A DNA stretch of 64,000 nucleotides from positions 109,239,192-109,303,191 of the forward strand of contig CM060978.1 of assembly GCA_030765065.1 (NCBI GenBank). The letters are read 5' to 3'. The notes beneath the pieces are model-generated. The model searched no databases, was not told the DNA's origin, and saw only the letters and a program-made list of their open reading frames with translations. Every line of letters starts with the position of its first letter. Position 1 is the stretch's first letter. The position numbers and the translations under genes are program-made. Positions 3,758 through 55,965 of the stretch are shown one piece after another. The stretch comes from Deroplatys truncata. Its lineage: Eukaryota > Arthropoda > Insecta > Mantodea > Mantidae.

Positions 3758-3837
3758 CTGAATACGAGTGATTTACAGTCTATGTGCCATCCAAGACTTC
3801 GTTACGGGCCGCAGACTGTAAATTAAATTACCACGTG

Positions 3838-4690: not shown

Positions 4691-4799
4691 AGGTAAGAAA
4701 AAACGAAAAATTAAAAAGATAAGAAAATAGTTTGTTCTTGTTATCCTCTTTAACATTCTGTTACGAAAACATATATGTACTCAGATTTCCTGTCAAATA

Positions 4800-11093: not shown

Positions 11094-11138
<45 letters not shown>
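11094..11138. repeat. (GA)n microsatellite
   Basis: About 22 GA units that directly abut the 5' end of the next family A copy. The repeat may have inserted beside an existing tract. Confidence 0.95.
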
Positions 11139-11140
<2 letters not shown>

Positions 11141-11142
<2 letters not shown>

Positions 11143-11831
11143 TGATGTGTTACACTGACATGACTTTCTCTATTCTTGTACAAACTATTTTTACAAACGC
11201 TTATTCTCCATATGCTTCATGTTAATCGAGATATCGATATGTTAATATTATTGCTAATTTTCTTGTAGATGCAAGGGGAATTGGTAGGCTTTAAGCGATA
11301 GTCAAATATTTTAAGAGCTGGTTGCTATGTCGAGTATTCTATTCTCTTTCCATTACCAGGACAAAAAATGAATAACGAATTCCCATTTGAAAAAAAATTT
11401 AAAGGAATAACAAGCAATATCTCGAAAATGGTTCACTCAACAACAAAAATGTATATAACATAAATTGTGTATTTTAACGCGATCTACATTTTTATGTGTA
11501 GTAAAATGTTGTCTATCTCTTATGGTTTACCAATTATGCAAAAGTCGTTCACAATGAAGAATACTTTTGGAGACATTCCCAGAAAATTCAAGATATACAT
11601 TTTATTTGTCATGAAAGTATCTTAAATATATGATATTTTAATCAAAATCGTTAGAGTCATTTTTGAGAAAATTAAAATTTTCGAAAAATGTTCCATGTAA
11701 AGGGTAATCTGGGGTGGGAGATTTTCTTGAAAACCTTCGTGTCGCATCTCTGGAAGATACTGAACCTAAATACGAAGTTTGGTGTTTATCCGACTGTTCG
11801 TTTCTGAGTTATGCTGTTTACAGACACACAG

Positions 11832-11866
<35 letters not shown>

Positions 11867-11998
11867 CATGTTTCCAAAAATGCTTTTTTTTATTCAGAGG
11901 GTCTCAAAACATATATTTCCGGTGAAATCTCGGTATCGAATTTTTGGGTAGAATGCAATACTTCCCCTACTTACTATACGTAGTAGAGAAAGTAAAAA
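11141..11998 (+). repeat. Family A repeat, best-preserved plus copy
   Basis: About 858 bp. The start is TCTGATGTGTTACACTGACATG, then ACTTTCTCTA. The end is TAGTAGAGAAAGTAAAAA. At the 3' end, 11959-11994 can fold into a hairpin, with arms TACTTCCCCTAC and GTAGAGAAAGTA. The outer arm is the complement of the ACTTTCTCTA motif that lies about 23 bp inside the 5' end. A (CA)n tract sits in the interior (11834-11863). An 89-codon frame (11714-11983) is shared with the 48.5-kb copy, but it includes the (CA)n tract and has no start context or domain. Confidence 0.85.
11834..11863. repeat. (CA)n microsatellite inside family A
   Basis: About 14 CA units at the point where other copies have short 'cacagatacacac' runs, so the tract has expanded in this copy. 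Confidence 0.95.
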
Positions 11999-12976
11999 GC
12001 TGTATATAATTGAATTTGCGTCAGGATGAGGGAAAGAAGACGGAAAGATAAAGACAAGCGTAGGTGGACTAATGATTTAAGTATCTCGTATCGTGGTGTT
12101 CCGATGTTAAATGAAGCTTCATTCAAACGCACATTTCATACCCTTCTATGTTTCTCTCCCTTAGTAAGATTCCAACACACAAAAATACATATTTTTGTGT
12201 CAGCGGCCTAACTCGCGAACTTTACGCGGTGAACCCGTTATTGCCAGCTAATATTTCCAGGATCAGATGCTGTCTTTACATGTATGCGAACTTTGCACAT
12301 CCGTCTTTGCGAACTTCCGGATTGTGAGCGATCTTACTCGTGTATGTAAGATTTCGCCATATAATTGTTCCTTTCTTTAATAATATTCGTTGAACGTATT
12401 TCTTTAAAATAGATGTAATGTTTCTCTTGGTCAATGTTATAGAAACTCCCCACGTAGCTCTGTTTTGTGAAAATGAAGAATAAGCGTTCTCAAGCGAACT
12501 GAAACGATAACAAGATAAGTCGCGTTCTTCTGAACCCTTAACTTTCCAAACATAATCTTAGCTTACATTGATACACACACATCTGTTTAACTTACAATAG
12601 AAATTTTAACTGCAACTTAAAGCTGCACGTGGGTTTAGGGAACATTCTGTTATCCTGCTTAAAGAATCCGTTTCCCACAGGACTTATTTTTCTCTGCAAC
12701 CCCATACTGGTTTCTGCAATATATTGTCTTTTAAAATTTATACAATGCTTTTTTTTTTCACACTGCGGTCATTGCACGCTGGCCGCCGCAGCTCGGACTC
12801 CCGCCGAAACAGCTATATTCGCGCAACCGCCTCACATTCTTATAGCAGTTACAATTAAAATGATAATAGACACTACCTTATCGTAAGATATGTTGGAAAT
12901 GTTGTTCTTCTCTATGCTCACATTTCTGGGATGTTTTCAGGAAAATTTTATTCACACTCAAGAGTTCAATATTTGT
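11999..12976. other. No recognised gene; one short palindrome
   Basis: Frames at 12026-12211 and 12629-12886 show no known motif. An inverted repeat with 11-bp arms and a 2-nt loop lies at 12177-12200 (ACACAAAAATA arm). Confidence 0.4.
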
Positions 12977-14889: not shown

Positions 14890-16735
14890 GGACTAAGCTG
14901 CTTTTGGAACTCTAGTCCCTAGAGGGTATAAAATTATTTTGCCCAAATTTAACAGATAAATGTCAGCAAACGGTATTTACTCTGAAAAAGCGTGGTAATG
15001 AAAGTCTGAGAACGAGGAAAGAATACACCATAGAACATCTCCGCAGCCTTTTGAGAGTTTTTTCCTCAGAAATAGATCTTAGGAAGTCGAGGAACATGTA
15101 AAATGAAAGGAACTAGAAACTGCGGTCATAAAGGGACACGCCGAAGTTGCGTTGCTATTCCCAATGCGGTGACCAAATGTCCACATTGCCATTCTGGAAG
15201 GCGCGTAGGAGCAGAAAGAAATCCAATACATAAACAATCAAACGTAGTATGCGGGCCGGCTGTTCAGACAGCAACTTTCCGCATGAGAGAACCGCTCCAT
15301 GTTTCAACAGCTGTATACCACAATAAAAACAATTCGTTTTTATGGCGTTTCTTTGTGACGCGTCCATTGTAACGCAGGGCAAGCATTTTTAAACGGCTTG
15401 ACTGCTGTGATATTCCTCTATATATGCACGTATAATATAACACTTCTCAAGACTCCTGAGGCCCGTCCAAGAAAAGAATGAGAGATGAGAAAACGTCCGT
15501 TACTGACTCCACTTAGTCTAACAACACCGCTATACTTAAATTAGTTTGTTTTAGTAGTAGTGGTGTACTGGGTACCGCATTTACCCAGATTACCGGATTT
15601 AATTCAAGTTTATGATGGCTGCTACATCGGAGTTGTAAAGACAGTCATGCCTGCATCTTTCTCACAAATATGGAAATGAAGTGTGCAACTTTGTAAAAGC
15701 AAATTACCCAGAAATGTGTTCAGTTGACACAAAATGCTAAAATAAAATACATAACATTAACTTTCAAAGTTCTTCGTTATCTTATTCAAAGATTTTTGGA
15801 AATACAAAGCCATGAGCCCGTAACTAACCTTCACCTCAATCTTTAGGCAATCCGATCCTTTGAAAAAGCAAAATTTTAATAATTAGGAAAGGGCTTTGTA
15901 GAATAATGTCCAAGCAGAAGTAATGGATAGCAAATACACAATTGATCTCGCCATTTATTTTAATAACGTAGTATGCCATGGGGAAATTTTGTATTTGAAG
16001 AACACATGTACTATAAAAGGCATACTGAAAGCAAAACTCGGAAGAAGCTCCATTGAATTTAACCCAGTAAACTTGTGTCCAGGTCAATTAAAAAATAAGA
16101 AGCAACGATGGAACTAATGACTATGAGTGCAATTGAAATCCTTAATGGAATACCTATAGAATACCTATATAAATAATGAGTAAACCGAATCCGATCGTGC
16201 TTTGTGCATTGTTCACTTCAGGTCAGAAAAAATGCATTATGTGAATAAATGCCTGCTCGCTGTAAAAACATGAAGCTGGTTTTAGAATTTGCAAGGAAAC
16301 CGAAATAATGTAGACCCTTTCTCTTAAGAAGAAAGCTTCAAATTAATGGTTACCGATGAAGCCGAGTCTCAGATGATGAGGCAGTATTTTATATCACAAC
16401 ACTGTGAATGCCAGAGTGATTGTAGTGTAAATTAACATTATTGTATGACAATGATTTTAGATGTCTGTAGCTATAAGCATTGTTAGGAAATAAGCTTACA
16501 CGGCCTCACTGAAACTGACAATAGGAGTGGGTAACAATGAAGCGATGGGGTGAGTTGTTTATCACTTAAAAGAGACAAACAAATGACGTCAGGGTAGCGC
16601 GCCTTTCTTTAGAAATGGAGGGAATATCCTCCCTAGAGCATATGTTTTAGTAATTATGATTGGCTGACGAAACAGACGCTAATGTTGGCGCGATTTAGTA
16701 ACCAATAGGAGCTCGATTATAATGTTTAGGCATAT
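14890..16735. other. No recognised gene
   Basis: Open frames at 15103-15372 (plus, 89 codons) and 15836-16087 (minus, 83 codons) carry no motif that I recognise. The stretch 15100-15370 is somewhat less AT-rich than its surroundings and could be an unrecognised repeat. Confidence 0.4.
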
Positions 16736-17518
16736 CGGGGTGAGGGAGTATAAATTCTTGAGCCAAAGGCAAGTATCGCGCTGCTTAAGGTGCGGAGGCT
16801 CCCACCCAAGAGAGGTCTGTCCCCGAACTATCGCCGAGGTTCCCACCTGTGCTAACTGCAAGGGAAGCATGTGGCGTGTTACGGCGGGTGCCCTACGAGG
16901 AAGGCTGTGATAGCCTCCAGGAGACCACCAGCACCAGCAGACCCCCAAGGTAGGGGAGGCAAACCAACACAACAGCAGCACCCGCCAGCTCCGGCTCCGC
17001 CACGGCAACAAGATCAGCCTGCTTCCCGACGCTCTTATGCAGCAGCACTACAGAGCACCTCGGGTGGACCTGCGGTGTCGAGGGCCCCCACACACACCAA
17101 CCCCAGAGATACAGAAACACCTGCTCCAGTCACCCCAAAACCACCCCGTCCTAGAAGGACAAGGAAATGTCGACCAGCTCGAGAACCGGACTCGGACTCC
17201 GAGGCCTCGTGTGAGCGTGGTACTTCCACGCCTCCCCGAAGGTTGAGGGCCGACAAGAGGACCAGTGGATCGGCGCCCTTGCCCAAGCCCCCCACTCCTC
17301 TCCCGAGAAGAGCCCCAACCCCTCCTCCTGCACCACAGGTTTCTGATGTGCTGGTGTGGTTGCAGCAGCTGCTGCAGAACCACGGCCAGCGCATCTGCGA
17401 CCTGCTGGTCAGGTTCCTCTCAACATCCGACCAAGCCGGAAAGATGGTTATTGCCATGGAGGGGCTCACACTCCTGACCACTGTCATCCAGACGGCCCGA
17501 AATGATGAATCGAACTAG
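16736..17518 (+). pseudogene. LINE ORF1 (gag-like), 3' part, frameshifted
   Basis: Encodes the nucleic-acid-binding end of a LINE ORF1 protein, which packages the element RNA. In the first frame (open from 16722) a zinc knuckle, CLRCGGSHPREVC, is followed by the start of a second one, CANCKG. The second knuckle then continues in another frame (ACYGGCPTRKAV) that is open to 17518, so one frameshift lies near 16866-16871. After the knuckles comes a long Pro/Arg/Ser-rich, probably disordered tail and a C-terminal helical segment with LVWLQQLLQ. The stop overlaps the ORF2 start by 17 nt. The N-terminal half of a normal ORF1 is missing, so this is a remnant and not a complete gene. Confidence 0.8.
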
Positions 17519-20209
17519 GTCACGCACCTCGTTTCGGTTCGCGTTTTGGAACGCGTGTGGCATGGCCGATCAGGGGAATGAGCTCCAGCACTTTGCTGGC
17601 TCATATGCCTTGGACCTCATTCTAGTCGGGGAAACACATTTCAAACCCAACACCCGTTTCCGCCTACCGGGCTTCAGCTGCCTCAGGACTGACCGCTTGG
17701 GCCGCCGAGGAGGTGGCACTGCGGTTCTCGTGAGGAACAGTGTTGTCCAACGTCCAATCCCTCTCCCGCCACTTCAAACCCTGGAGGCCACGACCGTCTG
17801 TATTGATCTCGGCGGTACAGAAGTCATGGTGGTGTCTGTTTACCACCCTCCACGAAGGCTGTTCGTACTTAACGATTACCTTTCCATCCTCGCCCTTCAT
17901 CCTAACGTTATCATGGCTGGGGACATCAATGCCAAACATATGCGTTGGCATTGCGGCCCCCCGTCGTGTAGACGAGGCAATGAAATTATACGTATGATAG
18001 ATGCGGACCCTCAATTCAGAGCAGAGGGTCCCTGGCAACCTACACATCATCCACGAGGCCGAGGACGGGCTACCGTTATCGACTTCGCGATCATCAAGCA
18101 TTTTCCCTTTCATATCTCACTCACATCAATCAACGCGCTACACTCAGATCATAATCCTGTGTTAGCCGAGGTTAACACCAAGGCTGCCAGCCACGGCGTC
18201 CCGGTTCAACACCGGAAAGTCGATTGGGAATGCGTCAAGGTTTGCCTCAACGACTCCCTTCCACCCAACCCGAGAATCGTAGACGTCCCAACCCTGGAGG
18301 CGGCTGTCTCCTCCTTCACGTCCATCGTGGTACGAACGGTCCACAACCTCACGGTCAACGCCCCAGCTCCCTTGCACCCTGACGTCCTTCCTCTTGAACT
18401 CCACCTGCTAATCCGCCGCTCCTGGGCGGCACGCAGACTCTACCAGCGTCACCGCACGCCACATAATCGAGTGCTTCATAGGCGCCTGCGCCGTGAGGTC
18501 CGTCGCCGACTACGCGAACATAGAGTGCGAGCGTGGAAGGAGACGATGAATCGTATGAACCTCGAAGATGGCGACGTGTGGAGGATTGCCAAACACCTCC
18601 GTAACCGCAGAGATCAATACTCTGCCCCTCTCCACGGCACCCAAGGCCTGGCTTACCACCCCCAAGCCAAAGCAAATGTGTTTGCCGACTACCTTGAGAG
18701 GACCATGAGGCCTCGAGATGACCCCCAGGACGATGCCTTTTCCGAACGTACTCGGAGGGAGGTACGCCGATTCCTTCGACGTCCCCCAGACGATGCGGAT
18801 CGATATCCCGTCATAAGACCTTCAGAAATCCAAGGCGCACTCCGGCGTCTCAACCCCAAAAGGGCACCGGGGCCTGACGGGCTTACACCCGCCATGCTAC
18901 GACGCCTTCCCTTCCGGGCCGTGCTCTTTCTCACCAGGGTCTTCAATATGTGCTTCGCCCTGTGTCACTTTCCACGCGAGTGGAGAGAGGCTCGGGTTAT
19001 CTTCATATTGAAGCCGGGGAAACATCCGGTACATCCTGCCAACTACAGATCCATTAGCCTCCTCTCTGTCCTTTCGAAAGTTTTCGAAAGGACCATTCTT
19101 ACCCGCTTGTCTCCCACTTTAGGGGACATTCGAGGCATCCCACCACACCAGTTCGGCTTCCGTCCTGGGCACTCGACCTCCCAGCAATTGCTGCGCGTGG
19201 TGGAGGCGGCTGCCCTGGGCTTCCAGGACAGGGCTTACACCGCCGCGGTTTCACTGGATGTCGAGAAGGCCTTCTCGACGACCTGGCATGCGGGTCTCCT
19301 CAAAAAACTCATCCAACTGGAGCTCCCTACACACATAATACTCCTGTTACACACATATCTAAAACACCGCACTTTTGTAGTTTCGGTTGCGGGACACAAA
19401 TCTACACTAAGGCCAATACGAGGTGGAGTCCCCGAAGGTTCTGTGTTATCCCCCACACTCTTTAGTGTGTATGTGGCCGACCTACCCACAGAGCAGCACG
19501 TCAACATGGCACAGTACGCTGATGACGTGCTCCTGTATTGTACAAGTAAAAACCCACGCAGAGCCTTCAACCCCATTCAGAGACACCTCCGCCTCCTCCA
19601 AGAGTGGTGCAGGCGTTGGCGATTATCCATTAACCCGGCAAAAAGCCACGCCATTCTCTTCACTAAGCGCCGCTTTCCCGCAATCCTCCCCACATTCAGC
19701 TACCTCGGAAGAAGGATAGAATGGACAAATGCCATCACCTACCTGGGAGTTAAGTTAATAAAGGCCTAACTTTTGGGGGACACGTCAGGGACGTCGCGCA
19801 TCGGGGGCATGGGGCTGCGGCTTCATTGTACCCGATGCTGAGGTCTGAGATGCCTGTCCCTCTTAAGTTACACATTTTTCAAGCGCTCATAATCCCCTTC
19901 CTGCTTTATGCCTCCGAGATCTGGGGCATGGCCGCAGATTCCAGTCTGCTGCTCCTGTAACGGGTGCAGAATAGGGGCCTTCGGGCTATCTATTCTGTAA
20001 ACCGCTCCTTTCCCGTGAGACTGCTTCACGAAGCCTCATCCCTTCCTTACGTGGAGAATGAAATTAGGCGCCGGGTCGCAAAATTTTACGACCAGTTGCC
20101 ATACCATCAGAGCGCCCTCGTTCGGCCTCTTGGGGATTATATCCCCAGAACACGCCGCTTGAGGCATCACCGGGTTCCCCGCATGGCATGCGGACATATC
20201 CGGTAACAG
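17502..20209 (+). pseudogene. LINE ORF2: endonuclease and reverse transcriptase, broken near its end
   Basis: Open for 755 codons to 19769. An AP-type endonuclease (residues ~12-225) shows FWNACG, GETHF (catalytic Glu44), GDIN and a terminal SDHNPV (catalytic His). The reverse transcriptase (~440-700) shows APGPDGLTP, NYRSISLLS, motif A LDVEKAFS (Asp586 present), motif B GVPEGSVLSP and motif C YADD (672-675). The catalytic residues therefore look intact. Two motif positions differ from the family norm: Ser592, where AFD is usual, and PEG, where PQG is usual. Near 19763 the frame shifts and coding continues in another frame with GLTFGGH, IPFLLYASEIWGM, a TAA at 19958-19960, and then RVQNRGLRAI, LLHEASSLPYV, KFYDQLP and PLGDY, the Jockey C-terminal signature, ending about 20209. 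The protein would be about 900 residues. With one frameshift and one stop it is a young but probably inactive copy. The start is the first ATG of an ATGATG pair. Confidence 0.9.
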
Positions 20210-20530
20210 CGGAGTAATTCCAACAGCAGCTAAAGCTGAACTCCAATACAATCCCTTCAAGAGTAGCTTGGACTTCAAAATTAAAATCCCTACATGTTTT
20301 AAATTACTAAATTCATATCATCAGTGGTGCACAAGGGCAGTTGCACCATGACCGGCTACCATTGAGGAACAAACTTTGTTACCTCCTTTCTCTCCCCTAC
20401 CTAAAGAACAACCGCCATCCTATAACCCCCATATCCTGCCACTACGTGGTTATGCCCTAATTAGGGCAGGTACACGCCTAAACACACCATCGGGTTGCCC
20501 TCAACCTGCCATCATGATGCACGCACGCAA

Positions 20531-20680
20531 GTATCGCGCAGTTCTACAGAATCATTCACGAGGTAAACGTCGCGCAGTTCTAAGAAATCTCTCTCGCGAG
20601 TTACACGTCAGGCAGTTCTAAGGAAGCATTCATGAGGTACACATTACGCAATTCTACAGAATCTCTCGCGTCGTAAAGTT
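20531..20680 (+). repeat. Four ~38-bp tandem units in the LINE 3' UTR
   Basis: Units start at about 20531, 20569, 20607 and 20643. Each carries a GCGCAGTTCTA-like core, then (a)gaatc..tc(a/g)cgaggt..ac. Identity between neighbours is only partial, so the array is old relative to this insertion and probably belongs to the family. Confidence 0.8.
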
Positions 20681-20834
20681 AGTTACAAAATGTGAAATAC
20701 GCGAATTAATAGTGCGCGGCAAATAAGTGATTGTAGTTACATTCGAAAATATAACAGTTTCAGTCAGGCGTGTATCAAGATTAAATATGTGAAATTAATT
20801 AAGTGTGACGGCAATAAAAGTGTAAAAACAAATT

Positions 20835-22555
20835 CTTTTATCAGTGTTATCTTTTAGTAACAACTCCTTTCCTTTACACGCCCTGCTCAAGAGATATTTG
20901 CTCGACTGAGTAAATAATAGCTAGCCGGAGGACAAAGAACCCAAAATTCAAAATAGTAAAACAATAACAAGCGCCAAATAGCAAATAAGATAACACGAAC
21001 AGAATACTGCGACAATGATCGCGCCTACAAACCTTTTCCTGTAAGAAAGAAGGGGGATGATTAGTCCTATTGGCTGAAAACATTTTGAGGAAAAAATAAC
21101 CCGGCTGCACTATGTTGAATGTCTTCACATACCTGAACATTTCTAGTGATTTTATTTCACTTGTGTTAGATATTAAGGTTTCTAAATTCTAATGACACTT
21201 TTTGGCCAAGGCTTGTGACATTCCAAAGTGATGCAAGCTGTATGCTTTTACTGATCCAAGTGAGTTCCCTCTCCCTGGAACAAATGTCTTAATTAGGAGA
21301 AACTGTTCCAAACGCGATGCATTATTAGAGACTTTCTATACATGGGAGGTATATTGTATGTCAATTATTATAGGTAATAGTCGGTTCAGCCATTCTTGGG
21401 TGAAAACTTTTACAGTAGCAGTTATAGGCGTTAAAATTAATTGTTATTCAAAATAAAATCTACCAACCACATTTTGACTTGTTTTAAGTAATATACAGAT
21501 AGACAAGAGTCGATTTTGGATTTTTCTCATACGTATGCATGCTTGAAACTTTCTACCAATTTCTTTCAATTGCCGTGTATTCTAATTATAATGAATCTAA
21601 AGCAGTCTAAAAGTCATATCATATTTGTACATTTATGTAGCCCATTAAGTTAAGTGTAATGTTTAATCTAGAATTTTAGTTGATTTTTTTAACATTTAAT
21701 CCACTTGCTTGTCGCATTAATACGTGCGTGTTGTCAGTTGGAGCTGAAGAGCTGTTGTGCAATCACCCACGTTTCCAAGTTGATATGCAGACCGTCTCTC
21801 CGCTAATTACAGATATAGCATCAGCGTTGCTACATTCCACAATCATTTTACTGGGTCCTCCGTGAACACTGTTTCTATAGAATTATTTTGGTTTAATATG
21901 CAAATGTAACTCCTCCTCGCACCACCTCCCCCTTGCTACAATTAATCTCGAGTCTTTATGACGTATTTAAAACGCAGCAGCAGATGGCATGTATGGCTTT
22001 CCTCCCATCGCTGTTTGGGTTGAAACCACAAAGGGATGCTGGATGTGTTTCTACCTCTGGGACCTAATTCTTCTTTATTGATGGGGAGGCTTTAAAAGCA
22101 GCGAGGCGTGCTGTGCTCCACATCCCAGACTTTTTCCCCCCAATTCCCTCTTGCGGTTTTATTTCCGAGTGACATGGCAGAATGGAGAAGTCTCTAGTTT
22201 CCTTCGTTGTGCCGCGGATCTATTGCGTTCTCGGCCTGCTATGGCTGATTGCACCCTCTCCCCCAGGATCATTTACGTATTTACTTAAGAGAGTAGCTAG
22301 AATTGCCTACCGAAAATATTTAAAACAAAAATGTTTCTAACAAATCGAAACACCTACAGCTTTTGTAAATTGCTTTCGTCCACAATACAACGAAATGGAA
22401 TGGATAGTTTTATACATGTACAAACCTTAAGTAAAAATATGATTTAAAACTATGACTTGTAGCAATAATACAACCTGCTCTACCAGTAATCGTTTATTTT
22501 TGTAACTACCCTATAAATTATTCGTAAAAAGGCTTACTTTTCAATATTTCCTATT
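20835..22555. other. No recognised gene; one GC-richer patch
   Basis: An 88-codon minus-strand frame at 20874-21140 is unrecognised. The stretch 21900-22270 is less AT-rich than its surroundings and has no long frame or motif that I can name. Confidence 0.4.
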
Positions 22556-27639: not shown

Positions 27640-28318
27640 GATCTGTTGCATTCACACGGCTTTCTCTACTCTCATTTATAAACTATACTTACAAAAACTA
27701 AACCTTCTGTCCTTCATCACACATTTACACATATTTTCGTTGTAGGCATAAGGATACAATAGGATAAAGCGATAGACATATTTTTTAAATGCGGCCGCTG
27801 TGTGATGACTTTGAATTCCATTTACTTACATAATCACGAGAAACAGAAACGAATAGTGACTTACGGCTTAAAGAAAGTATAAGTATTTGAAAATTCAAGC
27901 CAATATCTAAGGATGTCTCAGAAATGGCTAACACATCAAAATATGTTATTTGACATAATTTTATTTGTGATGCAAATAAAACATGGAATTTTAATCAACA
28001 TGTTAGGGCCATTTTTTTAAAAATAAAAAATAATGAATTTTTTTTCTAAAGGGAAATTATGGTGAACGATTTTCTTGAAAAGCTTCGTGTCGCATCCGAA
28101 GATGCTGAACTTAAATATCAATTTTGGTATTTAACGACTTTTCGTTTTTTTAGTTAGGCTGTTCACAGACGCACGGAGACACACACGCACATTTTCTAAA
28201 AGTGCGTTTCTATTCAGGGGACTTCAAAATGGGAATTTCCAAAGAAATTTCCATATCGAATTTTTGGGTGGAATTCAATACTTTTTATATACTATAGGAA
28301 AGTAGTAGATAAATTAAA
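27640..28318 (+). repeat. Family A repeat, plus copy
   Basis: It starts at 'aaatctgatctgttgcattcacac' followed by GGCTTTCTCTACTCTC, and ends at 'tactataggaaagtagtagataaatt'. It keeps 'cttcgtgtcgcatcc', 'gatgctgaacttaaat' and the 'ttcacagacgcacggagacacac' block. Confidence 0.75.
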
Positions 28319-28844
28319 AAAGGTGTCTGCGCTTTTCTTTTCATAAGTATTGGTTGTGGTGACTTTAGGTGATGCAATAATACATGTGTGAAATCTCTAG
28401 CAAACTGACACAAAAACTAAAATCAAATAGAAAGTTTATTAAACTATAGAGTTCGTTTTGCTTAATTTCTGGGTTAAGTGACAGCAGTGTTCTGATAAAC
28501 AAACCACACGTAACTCTGTCCTTTATATCAATTGGTGCTCTAGTTTGTGGTCAAAGCCACCTTGTCATAGCAGAACAAACAATGCAAACAAATGTTTGAA
28601 TACGCAAGGAATCTTTATTGGAGCATTTAGCTTTTGTTGGTAAATTATTTCAGAATAATTATATTGCATGTCATTTCAAAACGTAATACACCAATAGGGA
28701 AACAGCAGATGTGCACCTTATGAAGACTTGGTAGCTGCAATACAAACGAATTAGCGGAGAACATTTGCCTGATGGATGTAAATTTCTAGGTGTACTTTAC
28801 TAAATTTGGCAAATGCGGTTAATACATAATGGGGCAAATGTTCG

Positions 28845-32415: not shown

Positions 32416-33217
32416 GCTTTCATTTTTAGCATTCTATTTATATTGCCACAGAGAAAGAATTTAGTGAAAAATTCTGCTTCCTCCAACTGAAGACTGCTGT
32501 AAACAAAGCTTATCAGGATGCAAAACTTCAAATACAGACATAAATACATAATTTTTACAGATTCCAATATATATATACTGAAATTGGTGAATTTTATTAA
32601 GGACCTCTTATATCTTTTGATATGTTATACTGGGTCTTCGCTCGCACGTTGTGTGTCAGAGCCCTTGTCGATTGGCTTAACCACTCCCCACACCTCGCAC
32701 TCACGACAGGCTTTCTGTCCTTCATTTACCGCGCAGTCATTAGCGTCGGAAGTCCATTTTATTTGCGAGGATGGGAAGCTAGTTATCTTTAGAACAACGT
32801 ACATTTGATGTAAATGTTATTTTAAATAAGAATCGGCTCGTCGCGTTCATGAAGAATTCATCTTGAGTTTTTTACACAATCCTCCTTCCAGAACTTCAGT
32901 TCACGACCATGTGAATAAATCTGAGACTTCTGGTTCAGTGCAAAACAAGAAATGAATCCAAAGACGTACAGTGTTAACAGAAGAAACATTGGCGAAAATC
33001 CTTAACGTTCACCATGAAAATCACTATCGAAATTAGCATAACATACAGCACATACAGCATTTGCTATGAGGCAACAGTTAATTGTGTTGTATTTTATGTA
33101 CAGTTTGCAGGAATACAGATTTAGCGGAGACAGAGTGCTAGCACTCCCGACTACGGCATGTCGTGCTACCCAAATTCAGAATCCCGTGCGAGCTGTCAGG
33201 TTTTATATCTAAGGCAT
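32416..33217. other. No recognised gene; AT-rich spacer
   Basis: A 96-codon frame (32518-32808) has no motif that I recognise. Confidence 0.4.
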
Positions 33218-33605
33218 TATACAGGGTGAATCACCAAATTCTTGCATCGCAAATATTACGGAAAATGAAAGTGCTACTGATGTGCAGTTTTCACAGCATT
33301 GATTGGTAGTCAGGGGCTCGTACATTTAGCCCATAAAAAGATTTTAATAATACTGAGAAAGTTTATTTGTTTAGCAAACATACAATTTTTAATGGAACAA
33401 TTCCTAGTTACATCAATAGAACAAAGGTAGGGTAAATTAGAATGTCAGTGGCGTTTGTTGCAAGATTTTAGTGCAAGTGGTTTACGAGAAATCTTATTTT
33501 GAAACCTTTACGCACCGACACTTGTACAACCTGTGGTAGCACAAACTAAAGAAAACCAAAAGGGAATTACAATACTTCTGTGAATTCTTACAAGTAAAGA
33601 GAACA

Positions 33606-33970
33606 TAGCCCTTCAAAGGTTGTGTTCAAAATGGCGACCGGGAGCTTCAATGCACGCTTCCAGTCTGCTATGGAAAGACTGCTGCACACGTTCTAGCATT
33701 TCAGCAGAAATTTCAGAACAGGCAGCAGTAATACGTCATTTCATATGGTCTGGTGTAGTTGGCACATCCTTGTAGATAGTGTCTTTCAGCCTTCCCTACA
33801 GAAAAAAAGTCTAAAGGGGTCAGATCCGGTGAACGGGCCGGCCAAGGTACAGGTCCACTTCGTCCAATCCCACGAAATGGAAACAATCCGTTAAGACAAG
33901 CTGCAGTACTTCGAGCACTATGGACTGGACAGCCACCATGTTGGTACCATAGGTTCCTCCTAGTCTGCAT
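33606..33970 (-). pseudogene. DDE transposase, C-terminal third
   Basis: Continues the transposase on the other side of the LTR insertion. It reads LWYQHGGCPVHSA, then RWIGR-like GIGRSGPVPWPARSPDLTPLDFF, then in another frame LKDTIYKDVPTT and SRLEACIEAPGRHFEH, the family's C-terminus. The second catalytic position, normally Asp in QQDG, reads Gly here (QHGG), so the catalytic site is lost. The third (Asp in the TPLDFF block) is present. A frameshift lies near 33795. Confidence 0.8.
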
Positions 33971-35036
33971 GAGGCAGTATTTTTAACACTTAAATGATTT
34001 CAGTCTAATTATATAAATATATAAATTGAATAACAGCCCGCCTTAAAGCAATATGTGTATGTAAAATATATAAAAGTTGTATATTACAGTCATTGTATAT
34101 GTTTATATTATTGTATTCATGTGTAATAATGTTATATGAATATATTACGTAATTTAATCATGTAGGAGCTGTGAGAAATAGGTCAAAGTTGCTACCAATG
34201 AGGTAACCTTGAGGCAATAATGAGTTTGAGAGTTTAAATGTTACTTGTGATTCTTGGAAGCAATAATATAATTTTAGTGACAGTTTATAAAAATAGCCAA
34301 TCAACAACCAGAAAAAGGTATAGTTAAATTAAAGTATTCTACTAGATTAAGAATAACCAATCAGAGACTTGAAATACAGAAATTTACAAGTTTAGGCGGT
34401 TGAAATCAATTCAGTTGCCTGCAGACAGTGTTTGTAACCGGATGCGAGATGCGTCCTCGAGAGATTTTAATACGTATTCTGAGGCAATATTTTTAACACT
34501 TAAATAATTTCAGTCTAATTATATAATATACAAATTCAATAACAGCCCGCCTTGAAGCAATATGTGTATGTAATAATTTGCAAAATGTATGTAACAGTCA
34601 TTTTCCATACGTAGCAGCAACAATAACATTTACAATTCGTGTGAGACAAAAAAATAGTTTACGTGTTAAAAAGTGCAAGTAATTAATTAAAAGAATCTCA
34701 CAGCTCTCTATATCAGTGAAGTGTTATTTAAATCGTATCAAGCATTAATAAAATAAGTGAATTAAAAATTATAATCTGTGTAAGCCTACATTCTTAAGTC
34801 GCACCACAACCCTGTCAAGACATCCATGTCTCTAACAATAATACTGACGCAGCCGAGGTAAACACAAATATATAATATTTAAAGAAACAGTCAAATTACA
34901 AAGCTAAAATTTTTTTAAACTTGGGGCAAAGGCCACCTGAAAGTACATTTGAAGCGAAGGCTACCGGAAACTGTTTACTATACGTGCGGTTGCAACTACT
35001 ACAAGTTCGGCTCCCCAACATTTGAACTATAATACA
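33970..35036 (+). repeat. Left LTR, interrupted by a solo LTR
   Basis: Same order of blocks as the right LTR, with a 159-bp insertion at 34480-34638 (a 155-bp element plus one copy of its 4-bp target). It contains TATA-like runs and 'gagatgcgtcctcgagagatttta' about 510 bp from the left edge. The promoter cannot be placed by eye. Confidence 0.9.
34480..34634 (+). mobile_element. 155-bp solo LTR of a related family
   Basis: Absent from the right LTR, where the empty site reads TACGTATTCGTGTGAG. Here it is flanked by ATTC on both sides (34476-34479 and 34635-34638), a 4-bp target duplication. It begins TG and ends CA. Its first ~110 bp match the first ~110 bp of the host LTR with about 90 % identity, but the rest differs (GCAGCAACAATAACATTTACA-like end). 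It is therefore the LTR of a shorter relative. Confidence 0.9.
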
Positions 35037-35571
35037 ACTCCTACTTCAAATTGGCTTTCCATATGTAAAGATAATTAACCTTCTTCAAAGTGGTGCCCAG
35101 CTGCGTGGAGCTCGAAGAGACAAGAATTGGTGAAAACAACTGAAAAGAAGAGATCAACGAATATCAGAGAACTTCAGAAAACTCCAGAAAAACATCAGAG
35201 AACTTCAGAATCATCAACAGCATCCAAGGACAGCAACAATTCTTTCAGGAGTACGGGGCACGCAGTCAACAATTCAACAACAATCTACGTGGGAATACCA
35301 GAATAAAAAGATTTACTGTAACAGCCAGAACTAAAGGTCGAAAATTCCAGTACTGTAGGTATAATAATTGTCAAGATAGCTAAGAAAATATATTGTTAAG
35401 ATAATTTGATCCTGTTAAGAAATGGTAAATTTAAAATTGAGCAATTCCAAACCAGAAATAACAAAGCAAAATGGAAACAGAAAACAATGGAAATATAAAT
35501 TTTAGTGGCTTCCAAAAGCAATAAATGACTCTTATACAGAATTAAGTAATAAGATAACTGAAAATAATGAT

Positions 35572-36567
35572 ATGATAGATGAAATGATAACTGAAATGAG
35601 AGGGGAGAGAAAAGAAACTAATAATAAATTAACTGAAACTAATACAGAGCTAAGAAAAGAATTAAATAATAAGTTAAATGAAACTAATACAGAACTAAGA
35701 GTAGAGTTAAGTAATAAGTTAACTGAAAACAGTAAAGAGTTAAATAATAAGCTGAATGAAATTAGCACAGAGTTAAATAAACTACAAGAAACTAGTCAGG
35801 AAACTGAAGAAATAGAAAACACAAATGTAGATATTGTGCAAATACAAATAGATCTTACAGTACCAAAGGTAAATACAAATGTAACTAGTTCTTTAAATGC
35901 TAATAAAATGCATGGCAATAATGCAAGTGCAGAAAGAAGTGTATCACCTTTGTTAACTAATAATACAAGAGACGCTACTACTTTTTCCATAGCATCAGCC
36001 TCTCAAACACAAAACAGTAATGATGACACACATGTGCATGTACCAAATCAGATGTCAAACTATTATTCTGTGCTTAATGAATTACCATTACCTTATTTTA
36101 ATGCTTCCTCAAGTCCAGTACAATTTATACATGATTTAGTAGAATATTTTAAATTGAAAAGTGTGCCTGAAGCATTAAAAATGATACTTGTTAGAAAATG
36201 CTTGGATAACAATAAAACCTTAGAATGGTTACATATGCTAGCAGACAGTGAAATGAATTTTGAAACATTTAGAGTTTTATTCATGAATAAGTTTTGGAAT
36301 ACCACTGTGCAACATAAGATTAGGGCAAGGCTAAAAAGTCTATGGTACAAGAATAAAAATAAAATAAAGTATGTCGGTTATGCGTGCCACAAAAAGAAAA
36401 AGAAAATAAATGTAAACAGTCTGAGGCACAAGAAGAAAAAGAAAATAAAGTATCTGGAACATAAAAGGGGAAAGCAATGTAATTTTTTTAAAAAAAATAT
36501 AAGAATATCTTTACTAGAAGTAACCAATTGTCAATATACAAAAGAGAATTTAGATAAAAAGATGTAA
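35572..36567 (+). CDS. Gag-like protein of the non-autonomous LTR element
   Basis: 331 codons. Residues ~1-80 are a run of 11-12-residue Asn/Glu/Leu/Lys repeats (ELNNKLNETNT-like) that should form a coiled coil. A Ser/Thr/Asn-rich linker follows. Residues ~175-265 resemble a retrotransposon gag/capsid domain: LPLPYFNASSSPVQFI, LEWLHMLADSEMNFETF, FMNKFWNTTVQHKIRARL. The C-terminus is very Lys-rich (KKKKK twice) and has no CCHC knuckle. The likely original start is an ATG at 35471 in another frame, whose 17-codon frame ends at 35524 shortly before this one opens, so a frameshift near 35518 is probable. Such proteins form the particle that packages element RNA; that role is inferred from the family. 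It is highly AT-rich, unlike the LINE at 16.7 kb. Confidence 0.7.
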   Translation: MIDEMITEMRGERKETNNKLTETNTELRKELNNKLNETNTELRVELSNKLTENSKELNNKLNEISTELNKLQETSQETEEIENTNVDIVQIQIDLTVPKVNTNVTSSLNANKMHGNNASAERSVSPLLTNNTRDATTFSIASASQTQNSNDDTHVHVPNQMSNYYSVLNELPLPYFNASSSPVQFIHDLVEYFKLKSVPEALKMILVRKCLDNNKTLEWLHMLADSEMNFETFRVLFMNKFWNTTVQHKIRARLKSLWYKNKNKIKYVGYACHKKKKKINVNSLRHKKKKKIKYLEHKRGKQCNFFKKNIRISLLEVTNCQYTKENLDKKM

Positions 36568-36935
36568 TAGAAGAAAAACCATTGTTAGTAAGAAAAACAT
36601 AATAAATCTGAATAGTAACTGCAATTATATAGTATAAGGTATAAATCGTTAGAAATTGTAAGAAAATAATAAAAATGTTTAAGAAATAAGTTGTAAAGAA
36701 AGGGTAACAAGTGTTAATATCACTAATTAAATGTTAAATCTATAGCAAATAAAATGCTTAATAGTGGCTATTTAGTGAATAAACAAACTTCACTCAGATC
36801 ACTGAACACCAGATCATTGACCTCAAAGTGCCGAACAAGTGAAAGAACAAAATGAACTACTCTGCTATATACGAGTGTAGTGAAAAACCAGTGAGTGTTA
36901 CATAAAAGTGACAGTGAAAAATAGGAAGTGTAAAA

Positions 36936-36936
<1 letters not shown>

Positions 36937-36996
<60 letters not shown>
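36937..36996. repeat. (TAA)n microsatellite between direct repeats
   Basis: About 20 TAA units. On each side lies a copy of CAGTGAAAAATAGGAAGTGT (second copy one base different; 36911-36930 and 37001-37020), so a local duplication and the expansion occurred together. Confidence 0.95.
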
Positions 36997-37137
36997 GCTA
37001 CAGTGAAAAATAGAAAGTGTAAAAATAAAAAGGTTATGTTTCTTTCTTTCAGGAGACTTTCAGAAAATGTTTTTAAAAAAATTTAAAAGAACAAAACAAA
37101 AATAACAATTTTTAAATATTTCTAAAAGGGGGCAATT

Positions 37138-38046
37138 TGAGGCAGTATTTTAACACTTAAATGATTTCAGTCTAATTATATAAATATATAAATTCAATAA
37201 CAGCCCGCCTTAAAGCAATATGTGTATGTAACAATATATAAAAATTGTATATTACAGTCATTGTATATGTTTATATTATTGCATTCATGTGTAATAATGT
37301 TACGTGAATATATTACGTAATTTAATAATGTAGGAGCTGTGAGAAATAGGTAAAAAATTTCTAACAATGAGGTAACCTTGAGGCAATAATGAGTTTGAAA
37401 CTTTAACAATACTACTTCTGATTCTTGGATGCAATACTGTAATTTTAGTGACAGTTTATAAAATAGCCAATCAACAACCAGAAAGACCTTTAGTTAAATG
37501 AAGGTATACTATTGGATTAGGAATAGCCAATCAGAGACTTGAAATACAGAAATTTACAAGTTTAGGCGGTTGAAATCAATTCAGTTGCCTGCAGACAGTG
37601 TTTGTAACCGGATGCGAGATGCGTCCTCGAGAGATTTTAATACGTATTCGTGTGAGACAAAAAATAGTTTACGTGTTAAAAAGTGCAAGTAATTAATTAA
37701 AAGAATCTCACAGCTCTCTATATCAGTGAAGTGTTATTTAAATCGTATCAAACATTAATAAAAGAAGTGAATTAAAAATTATAATCTGTGTAAGCCTACA
37801 TTCTTAAGTCGCACCACAACCCTGCCAAGACATCCATGTCTCTAACAATAATACTGACGCAGCCGAGATAAACACAAATATATAATATTTAGAGAAACAG
37901 TCAAATTTCAAAGTTAATATTTTTTTAAACTTGGAACATAGGCCACCTGAAAGTACATTTGGGGCGAAGGCTACCGGAAACTGTTTACTATACGTGCGGT
38001 TGCAACTACTACAAGTTCAGCTCCCCAACAGTTGAACTATAATACA
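37138..38046 (+). repeat. Right LTR (uninterrupted)
   Basis: About 909 bp, beginning TGAGGCAGTATTTTAACACT after the polypurine tract. It serves as the reference that reveals the insertion in the left LTR. The homology to the left LTR ends at AATACAACTCCT. Confidence 0.9.
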
Positions 38047-38052
38047 ACTCCT

Positions 38053-38743
38053 TCAATACTTGCGATACTTGTGCGAGTTCATTGTTCCTTCTATGAACAA
38101 AGGGTCTATGAGATGATGGTTCACTATCCCATACCACGCGTTTAAACTCCATAGATGCTGACGTTCCACCTGACGAAGCCAACGGGGATTGTCAACAGAC
38201 CAATAGTGCATGTTTCTACGGTTTACCAGGCCATGATTAGTAAATATTACCTCATCACTAAACAAGATACATGATGAATCTGGAGTATCATGTCTTAATG
38301 TCCATGTACAAAAGTTATCACGATTCTCAAAATAGTTTCCATGCAGCTCTTGAGGGAGAGAGATGTGACACGGCTGGAACTTATGTCGATGGAGAATGCG
38401 CAGTACACTTGCCTGACTTATGCCACTTCCACGTGCAATTGTGCGGGAACTAATTTACGCATACTGCAACGGCAGCCAAGACATTAATTTCTGCCTCTTC
38501 TCCAGTCACTTGTTTGTTTCTGTTGCGTTTTCTAGGTGTTACAGTACCACTTTCACCCTATTGGTTGAAGAGGTTGATAAATAAGTGCCGAGATGGTTGA
38601 CATCTATTGGGATACGTTTCCTCATACACCGTACAGGAACGAACTGCATAATTCCTACTCTCTCCATACACCATGAGCATGTCGGCTTTTTCTGCATTAG
38701 TAAACCCCATCTTCCACTCACGATTTACTGCTTGAACTGTCAC
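38053..38743 (-). pseudogene. DDE transposase, N-terminal two-thirds
   Basis: Minus strand. It starts near 38743 with a DUF4817-type helix-turn-helix: FTNAEKADMLMVYGES, then YPNRCQPSRHLFI. A stop/frameshift comes near 38558. Further frames show TVTPRKRNRNKQVTGEEAE, VLRILHRHKF and ELHGNYFEN-like blocks. The stretch from 38265 is open with LFSDEVIF (first catalytic Asp), then NRRNMHYWSVDNPRWLRQVE and LNAWYGIVN. The family is common in ant and other insect genomes; the enzyme cuts and pastes the element at TA sites. Coding stops at a TGA next to the LTR insertion. At least two frame breaks besides the insertion show that the gene was probably already dead. Confidence 0.8.
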
Positions 38744-39144
38744 AAACTAACTGACCAGAAAGTTGCAATGCAATCAATGAACAGAAAACACAATGCAAAA
38801 ATAACATAATCGTACCTAGCACTAAGCAGGTTGAATGGGACAAACAATTTGGAAACTTTTCAAAACGATTTCTCGTAAACCACTTGCACTAGAATCCTGC
38901 AACAAAGACCATTGACATTCTAATTTACAGTACCTTTATTTTGCTGATGTAACTAGGCATTGTTGCTTTTAAAAAATTGTATGTTTGCTCAAAAAATACA
39001 CTTTCTTAGTATTATTAAAATCTATTTATAAACTAAATGTACGAACCCCTGACTACCAATCAATGCTGTCAAAACTGCGCATCAATAGCACTTTCCATTT
39101 CCGAAATATTTGCGGTGCAAGTTTTAGTTGATTCACCCTGTATA

Positions 39145-40265
39145 ATATAGCAGCCTTTCTGGGGTGTGCTCTGTCCGTGAGGAAATTTGGGAAAAATATT
39201 AATAGAATAAATGTTGAATAATTAATTATAACCGCTACGATATATATTCGAAATTTTATAAACTTGTTGTGAATACTAATGGTAAACTTATTGGTTATAC
39301 TGAATGGATAGGTAATTAGTGAATGTAAGTAGTAAAGCAATTAACGATTTTAAAACTTTTAGCCTATTATGTTACACTGGTAGCTAGAATAATATGATTG
39401 TGGATAGAAGGTTATTCAGATTGTTGTTTATTACTCATTGTGTTATTATTGTTTGTTATATTATTTTGTAATTGTAACTCTGCCACCGGGTAATATCCAT
39501 TTTCAGTGAATAAATACATACTTGCATAAGAACTGGAGTATTTAAAGCATGCAACTTTCTATAATTTTATTTTCTAATGCTATTTTTTGCCTAATAGAAA
39601 TTTTGCCTGGAAGGCCATTATTTTAGTTTAATCTAAGGAGATATTAAAATTATAAGACTGACAGATTTGTTGAAGTTTAAAAATTGATATTAAGGCTTAG
39701 TGCTTTGGAAACTGTTTAAATATTAATTATCTGCCGATATTTAAGAGAATGCACTACTGAGATTTGGTAAATTGGACATGAGGATTGTGCTCCAAAAATG
39801 TTAAAAACATATAATGTCAACATTTAGTTTCACTTTTGGTACTCTGAATTTTTACCTTCATGTTCAACAAGGTAGCTATATAGAATTTACATTATTTCCA
39901 TTTTAAATCTTGAGTTTTTGGAAAAACTATTTTTCTCAGCACTTTTGCTCTTTAAATATTCCATGTAATACAGTCTTCAACAAACGGTTATGAAAAATGT
40001 CCTGCATTTTCTGAAAATTCTAATAATTAAAACTGTCATATAATGTTTAATCTATTTTGGGTTTTTGAATTTTGGGTTTTTAAAGCAAAACAAATAGATA
40101 GATTTTTATAGCGATCAGTTTTGAACCAAAATTAGCATTAAATAATTATACGACGTTGTGCGCTAAGAACAGATAAATGACATGAGATTTAAAAGCAACA
40201 TTATTTTTAAAACTTCATTGTAGAACATTTGACATAGAATAATAAAATTCACCTTTGTGACTCAA
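39145..40265. other. No gene; possible LINE 3' end at 39330-39527
   Basis: Near 39477 the text CTCTGCCACCGGGTAATA is followed by CAGTGAATAAATAC. It resembles the 3' end of the LINE at 59.7 kb (CTCTGCCACAGTGAATAAATAAAT), so a related LINE tail is likely. The rest is AT-rich without features. Confidence 0.4.
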
Positions 40266-48190: not shown

Positions 48191-48448
48191 AAACCTTCTC
48201 GTAATTCTCCTTTTCCTGCATGGGTTCATTAGCAACAAAAATTGAGTTAGGGTGTGTGAACAGTTGTGTTTGTTTTTCGTGATGTGCATGCACTCAAATT
48301 CACAATGCTTGATTCAAGATTATTTCTAGTCCAGAAAGTCTCATCACTAACGCAACGTCAATAGGGAATCGCTGTATTTATGGATACTGTAATATATAAG
48401 GGGTTATGTGAAGTTGTAATGGGCAACAGTAAGTGTGACGTAGACTTT

Positions 48449-49358
48449 TTTAATTTCTCTACTACGTATAGTAAGTAAGGGAAGTATTGTATTCCACCCA
48501 AAAATTCGATACCGAGATTTCACCGGAAATACATGTTTTGAGACACCCTGAATCCAAAAAAAGCATTTTTGGAAACATGTCCGTGTGTGTGTCTGCATGT
48601 CTGTCTGTGAACAGCATAACTCAGAAACGAACAGTCGGATAAACACCAAACTTGGTATTTAGGTTCAGTATCTTCCAGAGATGCGACACGAAGATTTTCA
48701 AGAAAATCCCCCACCCCAGATTACTCTTTACATGGAAGATTTTTCGAAAAGTTTAATTTTCTCAAAAATGGCTCTAACGATTTTACTTAAAATATCATAT
48801 GTTTAAGATATTTTTATGACAAATAAAATGTATATCTTGAATTTTCTGGGAAGGTCTCCAAAAGTATTCTCCATTGTGAACGACTTTTGCATAACTGGTA
48901 AACCATAAGAGATAGACGAACTTTTACTACGCAAAAAATGTAGATCGCGTTAAAATACACAATTTATGTCATATACATTTTTTTTGTTGAGTGAACCATT
49001 TTCGAGATATTACTTGTTATTCCCTTAAATTTTTCAATACTTATTTTCTAAAATGGGAATTTGTTATTCATTTTTTTGTCTTGGATATGCAAAGAGTATT
49101 AATCTGTGGGAAAGGGAATGGTGCTGCACCTAGCAACCAGCTAATAAGAGATATGTATATGCTTAAAGGCTACTGTATTTCTATATTGCCCTTGTAAATA
49201 TATATATTCCCCTTGCATCTACAAGAACATTAGCAATAAGATAGACTCTGCAAATGTTTATCTCGATTAACATGAAGTAGATGGACAATAAGCGTTTGTA
49301 TAAATAGTTTGTACAAGAGTAGAGAAAGTCATGTGAGTGTAACACATCAGATTTTTTT
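48449..49358 (-). repeat. Family A repeat, full reversed copy
   Basis: From TAATTTCTCTACTACGTATA (hairpin end) through 'cgataccgagatttcaccggaaatacatg', 'gtgaacagcataactcagaaacg' and 'cagagatgcgacacgaagattttca' to GAGAAAGTCATGTGAGTGTAACACATCAGATT at the other end. It is about 910 bp, and close to the 11.1-kb copy over most of its length. Confidence 0.85.
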
Positions 49359-49866
49359 GTCTTGGATATGCAAAGAGTTATAATCTGTGGCAAAGGGAAT
49401 GGTGCTGCACCTAGCAACCAGCTATTAAGAGATATGTATGTGCTTAAAGGCTACTGTTTTTCTATATTGCCCTTGTAAATATATCATCTACAAGAAAATT
49501 AGCAATAAGATAGAGTCTGCAAATGTTTATCTCGATTAACATGAAGTAGATGGAGAATAAGCGTTTGTAAAAATAGTTTCTACAAGAGTAGAGAAAGTCA
49601 TTGAGTGTAACACATCAGATTTTTCATTTTTTTTTGTCCTGGCAATACAAAGAGAATGGAATACTCCACATAGCAGCCACCTCTTAATATATTTGACTGT
49701 CGCTTAAAGCCTAGCTATTTCCCTTGCATCTACAAGAAAATTAGCAATAAGATTAACATCTCGATATCTACATTAACATGAAGCATATGGAGAATAAGTG
49801 TTTGTAAAAATAGTTTGTACAAGAGTAGAGAAAGTCATGTGAGTGTAACACATCAGATTCTTTTAA
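49081..49866 (-). repeat. Terminal ~280 bp of family A, three tandem units
   Basis: Units begin at about 49081 (part of the full copy), 49362 and 49640. Each runs from 'ttggatatgcaaagag' or its equivalent to GTGTAACACATCAGATT. Units 1 and 2 are much closer to each other than to unit 3, so the last duplication is recent. Confidence 0.9.
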
Positions 49867-55624: not shown

Positions 55625-55965
55625 TTGCAGTTTGAGCAACGAGCAAACACTAACTTCTGTAATAAAAAAAATTAGGCAAATCCACTAGGAAACGTTTCAG
55701 ATAATGAAACAGGTTTACGGTGACGACGCCTTGAGCCGCAGTGCTGTGTTTAAGTGGTACCAACTTTCCAGCAGGAGAGACACTCTGAAGGATGATGAGA
55801 TATCTTTCGGCCAGAAACGATTTCGTAACAACAGGGATCAACCAGGTACGAGCCACAAAATTTTGACCGATAAACTGAACACCATGCGAGTTCCGGTGAA
55901 ACCTGTATCGGTCCAATTCGCACTTTTGAATCCAAAATCAGTCCCATTTTCTAAAATGTAAACAA
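55625..55965 (+). pseudogene. mariner transposase N-terminal relic
   Basis: Plus-strand frames read FEQRANTNFCNK, MKQVYGDDALSRSAVFKWYQ, RRDTLKDDE and HKILTDKLNTMRV. This is the helix-turn-helix half of a mariner transposase (compare YGDxALSxxxVxxWxxxF, ILTDxLNMRRV). It breaks off before the catalytic domain at about 55960. Two frame breaks are visible. It is a separate lineage from the 30.5-kb element and cannot be shown to belong with the C-terminal relic at 52.1 kb. Confidence 0.75.

Follow-up and report, generated by a model that had tools for sequence, protein, structure and literature searches.

The 64,000-nucleotide window (the whole stretch of DNA analysed) contains a three-level nest, in which a DNA transposon is interrupted by an LTR retrotransposon whose left LTR is itself interrupted by a small inner insertion. 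Three-level nesting is in itself ordinary; what is unusual is the repeated primer binding site (PBS) at the LTR edge of the middle element's family. In this family, tRNA-Lys PBS modules form an array at the border between LTR and leader, and target duplications place the LTR ends at differing module borders in differing copies. The anatomy of the nest taken alone is near certain, and a joint reading that combines the history of the nest with sliding U5 ends appears quite probable.

The middle element (33970 to ~38059, plus strand) is an apparently gag-only LTR retrotransposon with an eroded right end. Its left LTR, inner insertion included, spans 33970..35087, with the 3′ end placed by analogy with relatives bounded by target site duplications (TSDs), and its right LTR, 3′ end cut off, spans 37138..38059 by sequence comparison. 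The two LTRs match at 93% (33970-34479 against 37138-37649) and 96% (34635-35042 against 37646-38052) in BLAST, with E-values ≤1.2e-38 for these repeats as for the outer inverted ends. The pairing of 33970-35036 with 37138-38046 in the sequence-only reading was broadly good, except that the left LTR does not stop at 35036 but extends to ~35087, immediately before the PBS. Downstream follow a leader PBS of tRNA-Lys type with an internal insertion (TGGTGCCCAGCTGCGTGGAGCTCGAA, 35091..35116, plus strand), a gag-like open frame without pol (35506..36567, plus strand; 353 aa stop to stop) and, ahead of the right LTR, a polypurine tract recognized from sequence (AAAAGGGGG, 37124..37132, plus strand; the same in L038). 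The gag-like frame matches Ty3_capsid at E 0.023, below the Pfam cut-off. No pol-sized frame occurs in the window element or in L071/L038, both read whole, and the 3′ LTR lies a few kb or less from the PBS in 6/7 further elements of the family. TG...CA LTRs, a 4-bp duplication, a tRNA PBS and a polypurine tract characterize the family, but they are common to several LTR superfamilies and not diagnostic of Ty3/gypsy. Gag-only elements of the TR-GAG (PMC8704663) and RLG_Quinta (PMC11302176) types share with the middle element two LTRs, a PBS, a polypurine tract and a gag-like frame, with no pol; those are plant elements, whereas the middle element resides in an animal-like genome and bears the PBS array at its LTR border.

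The ends of the LTRs were surveyed by target duplication in 49 LTR copies, in two sets (39 + 10), with L044 (no 5′ start), L037 and L049 not entered. Exact CA plus a 4-bp duplication bounded 36/49 copies, while 8/49 carried one mismatch and 5/49 no duplication; within the one-mismatch group the ends of L038, L043 and L059 are doubtful, L038 being a 3′ LTR, so the bases that precede it do not constitute a target duplication. Across the 39-copy set, U5 ends 15 to 189 bp past the point where the match to window position 35042 stops, an anchor that shifts somewhat among copies. A spacer + PBS probe (≤6 edits) gave 40 matches in 23 junctions, consisting of 20 fetched of the 39 non-window matches together with L071, L044 and the window, and none in antisense or shuffled controls; a second probe, derived from L035, gave 48 matches in the same junctions, with both controls again at 0. 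Counting the leader PBS, at least two matches were present in 11/23 and 16/23 junctions, respectively. Junctions hold up to six modules (L101, leader PBS counted), and modules start with the spacer AAT followed by a tRNA-Lys PBS, which matches 18/18 in L101.

Genome-wide, exact TTCA-AAT-PBS sites number 1,180 (reversed control, 0), and an exact PBS followed by CAAATTGGCGCCCA within 12-42 nt occurs 253 times (control, 0). tRNA-Lys genes with a matching 3′ end are also present. Among three fetched matches to the tRNA pattern, L110 holds tRNA genes; L111 and L112 are probably PBS sites, because each has the exact 18-nt PBS and no tRNA gene. Many array modules are too decayed for priming, and PBS likeness did not exceed shuffles at 5% in 14/32 LTR tails (32/36 tails, those ≤30 bp excluded). 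The window junction gave one match to the L035 module probe and none to the PBS probe alone; a decayed PBS module (AAT TGGCTTTCCATATG... CTTCTTCA, 35049..35087, plus strand) was recognized within its U5 in a by-eye comparison with relatives. In a literature search, no title or abstract opening mentioned a PBS array within an LTR. HIV-1 MAL (PMC3185550) has a partial PBS duplication, a single 23-nt insertion. As in the middle family, a second, partial copy closely follows the PBS, but the family has up to six modules in a junction and integrated ends at differing modules.

The 5′ and 3′ LTR tails were comparable in six elements; the window (right end deleted), L102/L106 (3′ LTR truncated) and L084/L105 (a stretch lacking a 3′ LTR in sense orientation) were left out. 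In 2/6 the tail of the 3′ LTR forms a prefix of the 5′ array, namely in L101/L103, with an exact though AT-rich ATAA duplication, and in L086/L107, with TGTT/TCTT. No clean prefix is seen in the other four: L094/L108 diverges within the first module, and the module type differs between the ends in L071/L038, L095/L104 and L093/L109, the last with its 5′ LTR start not found. A 3′ tail identical to the whole 5′ array was found in 0/6 pairs. Except for L071/L038, the pairing of LTRs into one element was judged from distance and order and, in four cases, also from target duplications.

These observations suggest a model in which the RNA leader of the middle family would carry several tandem tRNA-Lys primer binding sites. 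The tRNA may start reverse transcription from any member of the array, and therefore the U5 end would slide, since the PBS chosen fixes the 3′ end of U5. LTRs would gain or lose whole PBS modules, with downstream modules remaining in the leader, so that U5 would grow by taking in old PBSs and shrink by upstream priming. That the LTR of this family may have no fixed 3′ end, with reverse transcription starting at any PBS of the array, we put at even chances.

The chief alternative, possible but on balance doubtful, is that the modules in U5 are tandem repeats of an ordinary sort with no role in priming, and that slippage or gene conversion in integrated copies produced the differences between LTR ends. 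It draws on the decayed and mosaic state of the modules, on the discordance of 5′ and 3′ tails in 4/6 pairs, and on LTR tail classes that are not congruent with the trees (15 changes on each, a count with no shuffled control). Against it, ends bounded by exact duplications fall at module borders, which means that the integrated cDNA must have had those ends, and modules begin with the spacer and PBS, as in L101. Under the sliding-end model itself, the four discordant pairs would need template switching, recombination or conversion besides.

The PBS array is of more weight than the nest, as LTR ends are generally treated as fixed in element detection, dating and classification. If the model is true, ends that shift in units of whole PBS modules would confound detection tools and complicate LTR-pair dating near U5; the PBS used by each integration would be testable from genome sequence, and old priming events would stay readable as a record inside LTRs.

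Within the window, the LTR pair is usable as a clock, as had been proposed: the two LTRs are each other's nearest relatives in both tree partitions (in the first they fall in an unresolved trio with L048 and are still nearest by path), with a K2P distance of 0.050 over 915 sites. Their mutual proximity rejects an origin of the two LTRs from different insertions. Intermolecular strand transfer was likewise rejected as the sole cause of the 5′/3′ differences of this pair, given that divergence is greater in the first part of the LTR (K 0.060) than in the last (K 0.038).

At the right junction the right LTR breaks off near 38059, ~40 bp short of its end, and ~45 bp of transposase sequence that most of the 19 outer copies in the comparison retain are absent. 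The sequence-only reading overlooked this deletion, which removed the right LTR end, the target duplication and the 45 bp of target, and which leaves no readable target duplication on the right side of the middle element. The presumed left duplication is TGCA (33966..33969), as indicated by uninterrupted outer copies and the 4-bp duplications of the family; its right copy is deleted, and TGCA/TGCG as a simple target duplication was rejected on comparison with intact outer copies. That the 45 bp were instead lost as a target deletion at integration or earlier, rather than in a deletion that later crossed the LTR end, is unlikely: CTGC microhomology borders the lost segment in intact outer copies and TGCA/TGCG could be a decayed duplication, but a pre-existing target deletion leaves unexplained why the right LTR lacks its own terminus.

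The inner insertion (34480..34634, plus strand) is 155 bp long with TG...CA ends and is flanked by ATTC on the left (34476..34479) and right (34635..34638), with a single ATTC at the matching place in the right LTR. The sequence-only reading had given its place in the left LTR, the duplication and the empty site correctly; its identification as a solo LTR did not hold. Solo LTRs arise by LTR-LTR recombination, and they resemble the inner piece in their TG...CA ends and 4-bp duplication, but the piece preserves just 155 bp of an LTR measuring ~0.9-1.1 kb elsewhere and so is not a complete LTR. As regards TRIM elements, which have a short LTR pair with PBS and PPT between, there is no internal region or second copy at the site. 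The piece comprises the first 123 bp (34480-34602) and the last ~32-34 bp of a same-family LTR. The window alone matches it over 155/155 bases: among 40 scored matches of 535 candidates, no other is full and 39/39 stop at base 120-130. All 12 of the first-fetched matches were full-size LTRs, and 22/22 fetched matches run on into the rest of an ordinary LTR. The tail scored 25 of 34 against same-family LTR 3′ ends, compared with ≤18 for three shuffles. Single-strand folding of the whole insert was no better than in shuffles. By these comparisons the inner piece is what an internal deletion left of an element from the middle element's family, with an ATTC duplication. A separate small-LTR family, whether of solo or TRIM type, was rejected on the partial matches, full-size relatives and tail match, and is highly improbable even with the ends, the duplication and the scoring of 40 of 535 candidates in its favor.

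The outer element (33222..39140, transposase on the minus strand) is a TA-flanked Tc1/mariner-type transposon of the DD41D class, and this copy is dead. Its terminal inverted repeats begin with CAGGGTGAATCA at 33222 and finish at 39140, with TA on both sides (33220..33221 and 39141..39142). BLAST self-matching defined inverted ends of ~285 bp (33222..33504, plus; 38858..39140, minus), 33216-33504 aligning with the complement of 38858-39146 at 86.6% identity over 291 columns. The split transposase is readable as minus-strand pieces on both sides of the middle element, the C-terminal part (33510..33969) with Gly in place of the second catalytic Asp and the N-terminal part (38061..38860) with frame shifts. 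The inverted ends, the split DDE transposase and the insertion of the LTR element within it, all noted earlier from the letters, are thereby corroborated, as is the expected occurrence of uninterrupted ~1.84-kb copies: 14/20 fetched relatives have both ends and a length of 1.82-1.89 kb. Among 17 copies examined, the left end reads TACAG in 12 and the right end CTGTA in 15.

The DDD triad, with 41 residues between the second and third, and a PF16087 match were seen in relative L010 and not, for the triad, in the window copy, whose transposase piece hit only HTH_50, below the Pfam cut-off; the N-terminus is a DUF4817 helix-turn-helix. Solved structures gave 0 matches to the L010 open frame at E 0.1. 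The DD41D assignment reflects triad spacing and TA duplication. Both are shared with DD41D/VS transposons (PMC8472432), and the length falls inside their range of 1,024-2,258 bp; the ~285-bp inverted ends and DUF4817 N-terminus may set the outer element apart.

The order of layers given by the sequence-only reading stands. In the history that follows from comparing the sequences, the DD41D transposon entered at TA, the gag-only retrotransposon then integrated at TGCA in the transposase gene, and a same-family LTR element integrated later at ATTC in its left LTR. The inner element shrank to 123 + ~34 bp, possibly in one deletion from 5′ LTR into 3′ LTR, and a separate deletion took the right LTR's outer end together with the target duplication and the adjoining 45 bp. 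An assembly artefact is scarcely credible: the nest comes from one assembly, but a target duplication or an end consistent with its family marks each layer, and elements of both kinds stand alone elsewhere in the genome. Nests of such kind are common, and this one yields clean relative ages together with an LTR divergence.

The anatomy of the three-level nest at window positions 33222-39140 is near certain: the sequence-only reading described the arrangement correctly, although its interpretation is supported only in part. The outer layer, a Tc1/mariner-type DNA transposon, has the paired inverted ends that it proposed, at 33222 and 39140 (86.6% alignment identity), and these have TA on both sides. 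In general character the elements appear to be of insect type. Searching the 4.29-Gb assembly (818 contigs) with the left end returned 2426 candidate places; 40 were scored, and the 39 besides the window showed 91-93% identity. Uninterrupted copies of about 1.84 kb do exist elsewhere: 14 of 20 fetched places hold two-ended copies with 1,822-1,894 bp between the ends, two hold shorter ones (1,221 and 1,326 bp), and four hold broken, cut or interrupted copies (L009, L011, L026, L028). The relative L010 has a stop-to-stop open frame of 351 residues containing a DUF4817 helix-turn-helix (E 2e-11) and three Asp residues; the second and third are spaced by 41 residues, indicating the DD41D type. In the window the transposon is dead, its transposase frame-shifted and with Gly in place of the second catalytic Asp.

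In L028, another genomic copy of this transposon, a different insertion (3116-4605) sits about 10 bp away from the spot occupied by the window's LTR element. It begins TGAGGCAGTATTTAATATC and has an ACGT duplication, and its two ends match window 16377-16779 and 20529-21015. These segments flank a non-LTR reverse transcriptase frame (17478-19769), and a second nest may lie there in the window.

The middle LTR element starts at 33970, directly after TGCA. Its left LTR had been ended at 35036; in relatives, the end set by 4-bp target duplications is a CA farther downstream, and the corresponding CA in the window directly precedes the primer binding site (PBS), which places the end at 35087. The right LTR (37138 to ~38059) is about 40 bp short at its 3′ end. 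After ...CTAGTCTGCA, most of 19 compared transposons have about 45 bp and then TGCGATACTTG; the window lacks the ~45 bp preceding TGCGATACTTG. A deletion that removed the 3′ end of the right LTR together with the duplication and 45 target bp explains all three observations.

Phylogenetic analysis revealed that the two LTRs are mutual nearest relatives in both partitions, and therefore products of one insertion. SH-aLRT support for the pair is 94 in the second partition, which has 45 rows. The first partition, with 42, groups them with L048 in a trio (support 88) whose branching is unresolved, the pair remaining nearest by path and identity. The pair is thus usable as a clock: 44 substitutions over 915 sites (K2P 0.050) correspond to about 8 million years if 3e-9 substitutions per site per year is assumed, a rate originating outside this species. 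The internal region contains a gag-like frame, and no pol was found in it. L071/L038 (the two ends of one element) shares this gag-only build, and in six of seven further elements the 3′ LTR follows the PBS by no more than a few kb, a spacing that would be too tight for a full gag-pol. Nests, solo and truncated LTRs and elements with gag only are all commonplace.

The 155-bp inner piece (34480-34634) is bounded by the proposed ATTC duplication, but its identification as a solo LTR is not supported. Among 535 candidates, 40 hits were scored, and only the window itself matched over the full 155 bp; the other 39 end at base 120-130, mostly exactly 123. All 12 first-fetched hits run on as ordinary full-size LTRs (95-98% identity over the matched part), and 10 later-fetched hits likewise extend into the remainder of the LTR. 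The last 34 bp score 25 of 34 against LTR 3′ ends such as L109, versus at most 18 for three shuffles. Judged from these matches, the piece is an internally deleted element, both ends of a same-family LTR element with everything between removed. A single deletion that began in the 5′ LTR and ended in the 3′ LTR would suffice; alternatively, the element may first have recombined to a solo LTR and then lost more sequence in a second deletion. Reverse transcription copies both LTRs from one template, and the piece is absent from the right LTR; it is therefore younger than the middle insertion.

Relatives bounded by target duplications differ in their U5 end, which in the first set of copies surveyed falls 15 to 189 bp beyond the point where the match to window 35042 stops; this anchor itself moves somewhat from copy to copy. 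Duplications in 49 LTR copies were exact in 36, had one mismatch in eight and were missing in five, against a roughly estimated 10% chance per copy of a CA plus 4-mer match in the span searched. The added segments are modules of CTTCTTCA, an AAT spacer and a TGGCGCCCAACGTGGGGC-like sequence, TGGCGCCCAACGTGGGGC being complementary to the 3′ terminus of tRNA-Lys genes present in this genome. A tandem tRNA array (C9:191136768-191189755; mostly 144-bp period, >50 kb, at least 100 places) mixes anticodons: ARAGORN on 851 bp of it (L110) reported Lys-CTT, Lys-TTT, Lys-CTT, Asn-GTT, Asn-GTT, Lys-CTT, all on one tRNA body.

Across 23 LTR/leader junctions, a spacer-plus-PBS probe (up to 6 edits) gave 40 sense matches and none on the other strand or in shuffled sequence, with at least two in 11 junctions and none in three, the window included; a second probe, from L035, gave 48 sense, 0 antisense and 0 shuffled, with at least two in 16 and one match in the window. 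Both counts include the leader PBS. With a composed probe the corresponding figures were 47, 0 and 0.1 (at least two in 15 of 23 junctions), and a PBS-only probe (up to 4 edits) gave 15 sense versus 1 antisense. L101 carries six modules with the leader PBS counted, one of them exact. PBS likeness exceeds that of shuffles at the 5% level in 18 of 32 LTR tails and falls short of this in the other 14. Genome-wide, exact TTCA-AAT-PBS sites number 1,180 (reversed control 0), and exact PBSs with CAAATTGGCGCCCA 12-42 nt downstream number 253 (control 0). The 14 spacers among the matches listed for the latter differ, so these sites probably extend to more families than that of the middle element. At C5:23079462-23093467, five tandem PBS-PBS matches 3,484-3,485 bp apart suggest a head-to-tail LTR-element array.

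Whether such arrays let the U5 end slide by whole modules, through tRNA priming at any PBS, we consider about an even call. Given how reverse transcription proceeds, a tRNA that primes at an upstream PBS sets the U5 end at that point, and the PBSs downstream of it remain in the leader. As this predicts, the 3′ tail corresponds to just the first part of the 5′ array in L101/L103 (duplication ATAA, exact, in AT-rich flanks) and L086/L107 (TGTT/TCTT). L094/L108 (ACAT, exact) shares only the initial part of the first module; module type differs in L095/L104 (AGAT, exact), L071/L038 (TATA/CATA) and L093/L109. In none of six elements compared is the 3′ tail identical to the full 5′ array. The window's own two tails are unlike each other as well, but its right one is truncated. 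PBS choice alone is insufficient for the discordant tails; conversion, or a switch of template between RNAs packaged together, would be needed as well. Scoring tail class by eye gives a raw count of 15 changes on the tree of either partition. Partial PBS duplication is known from HIV-1 MAL (PMC3185550); the part of the literature surveyed contained no description of PBS arrays within LTRs, which is weak evidence of absence.

Elsewhere in the window, an open frame at 55689-55961 has a weak, below-cut-off match to a Mos1-type helix-turn-helix (HTH_48, E 0.0028), and a repeat family of ~0.2-0.9 kb copies (~67-92% identity) occurs at 1528-2354, 4217-4692, 11130-11999, 27958-28322, 48445-49864 and 63797-64000.
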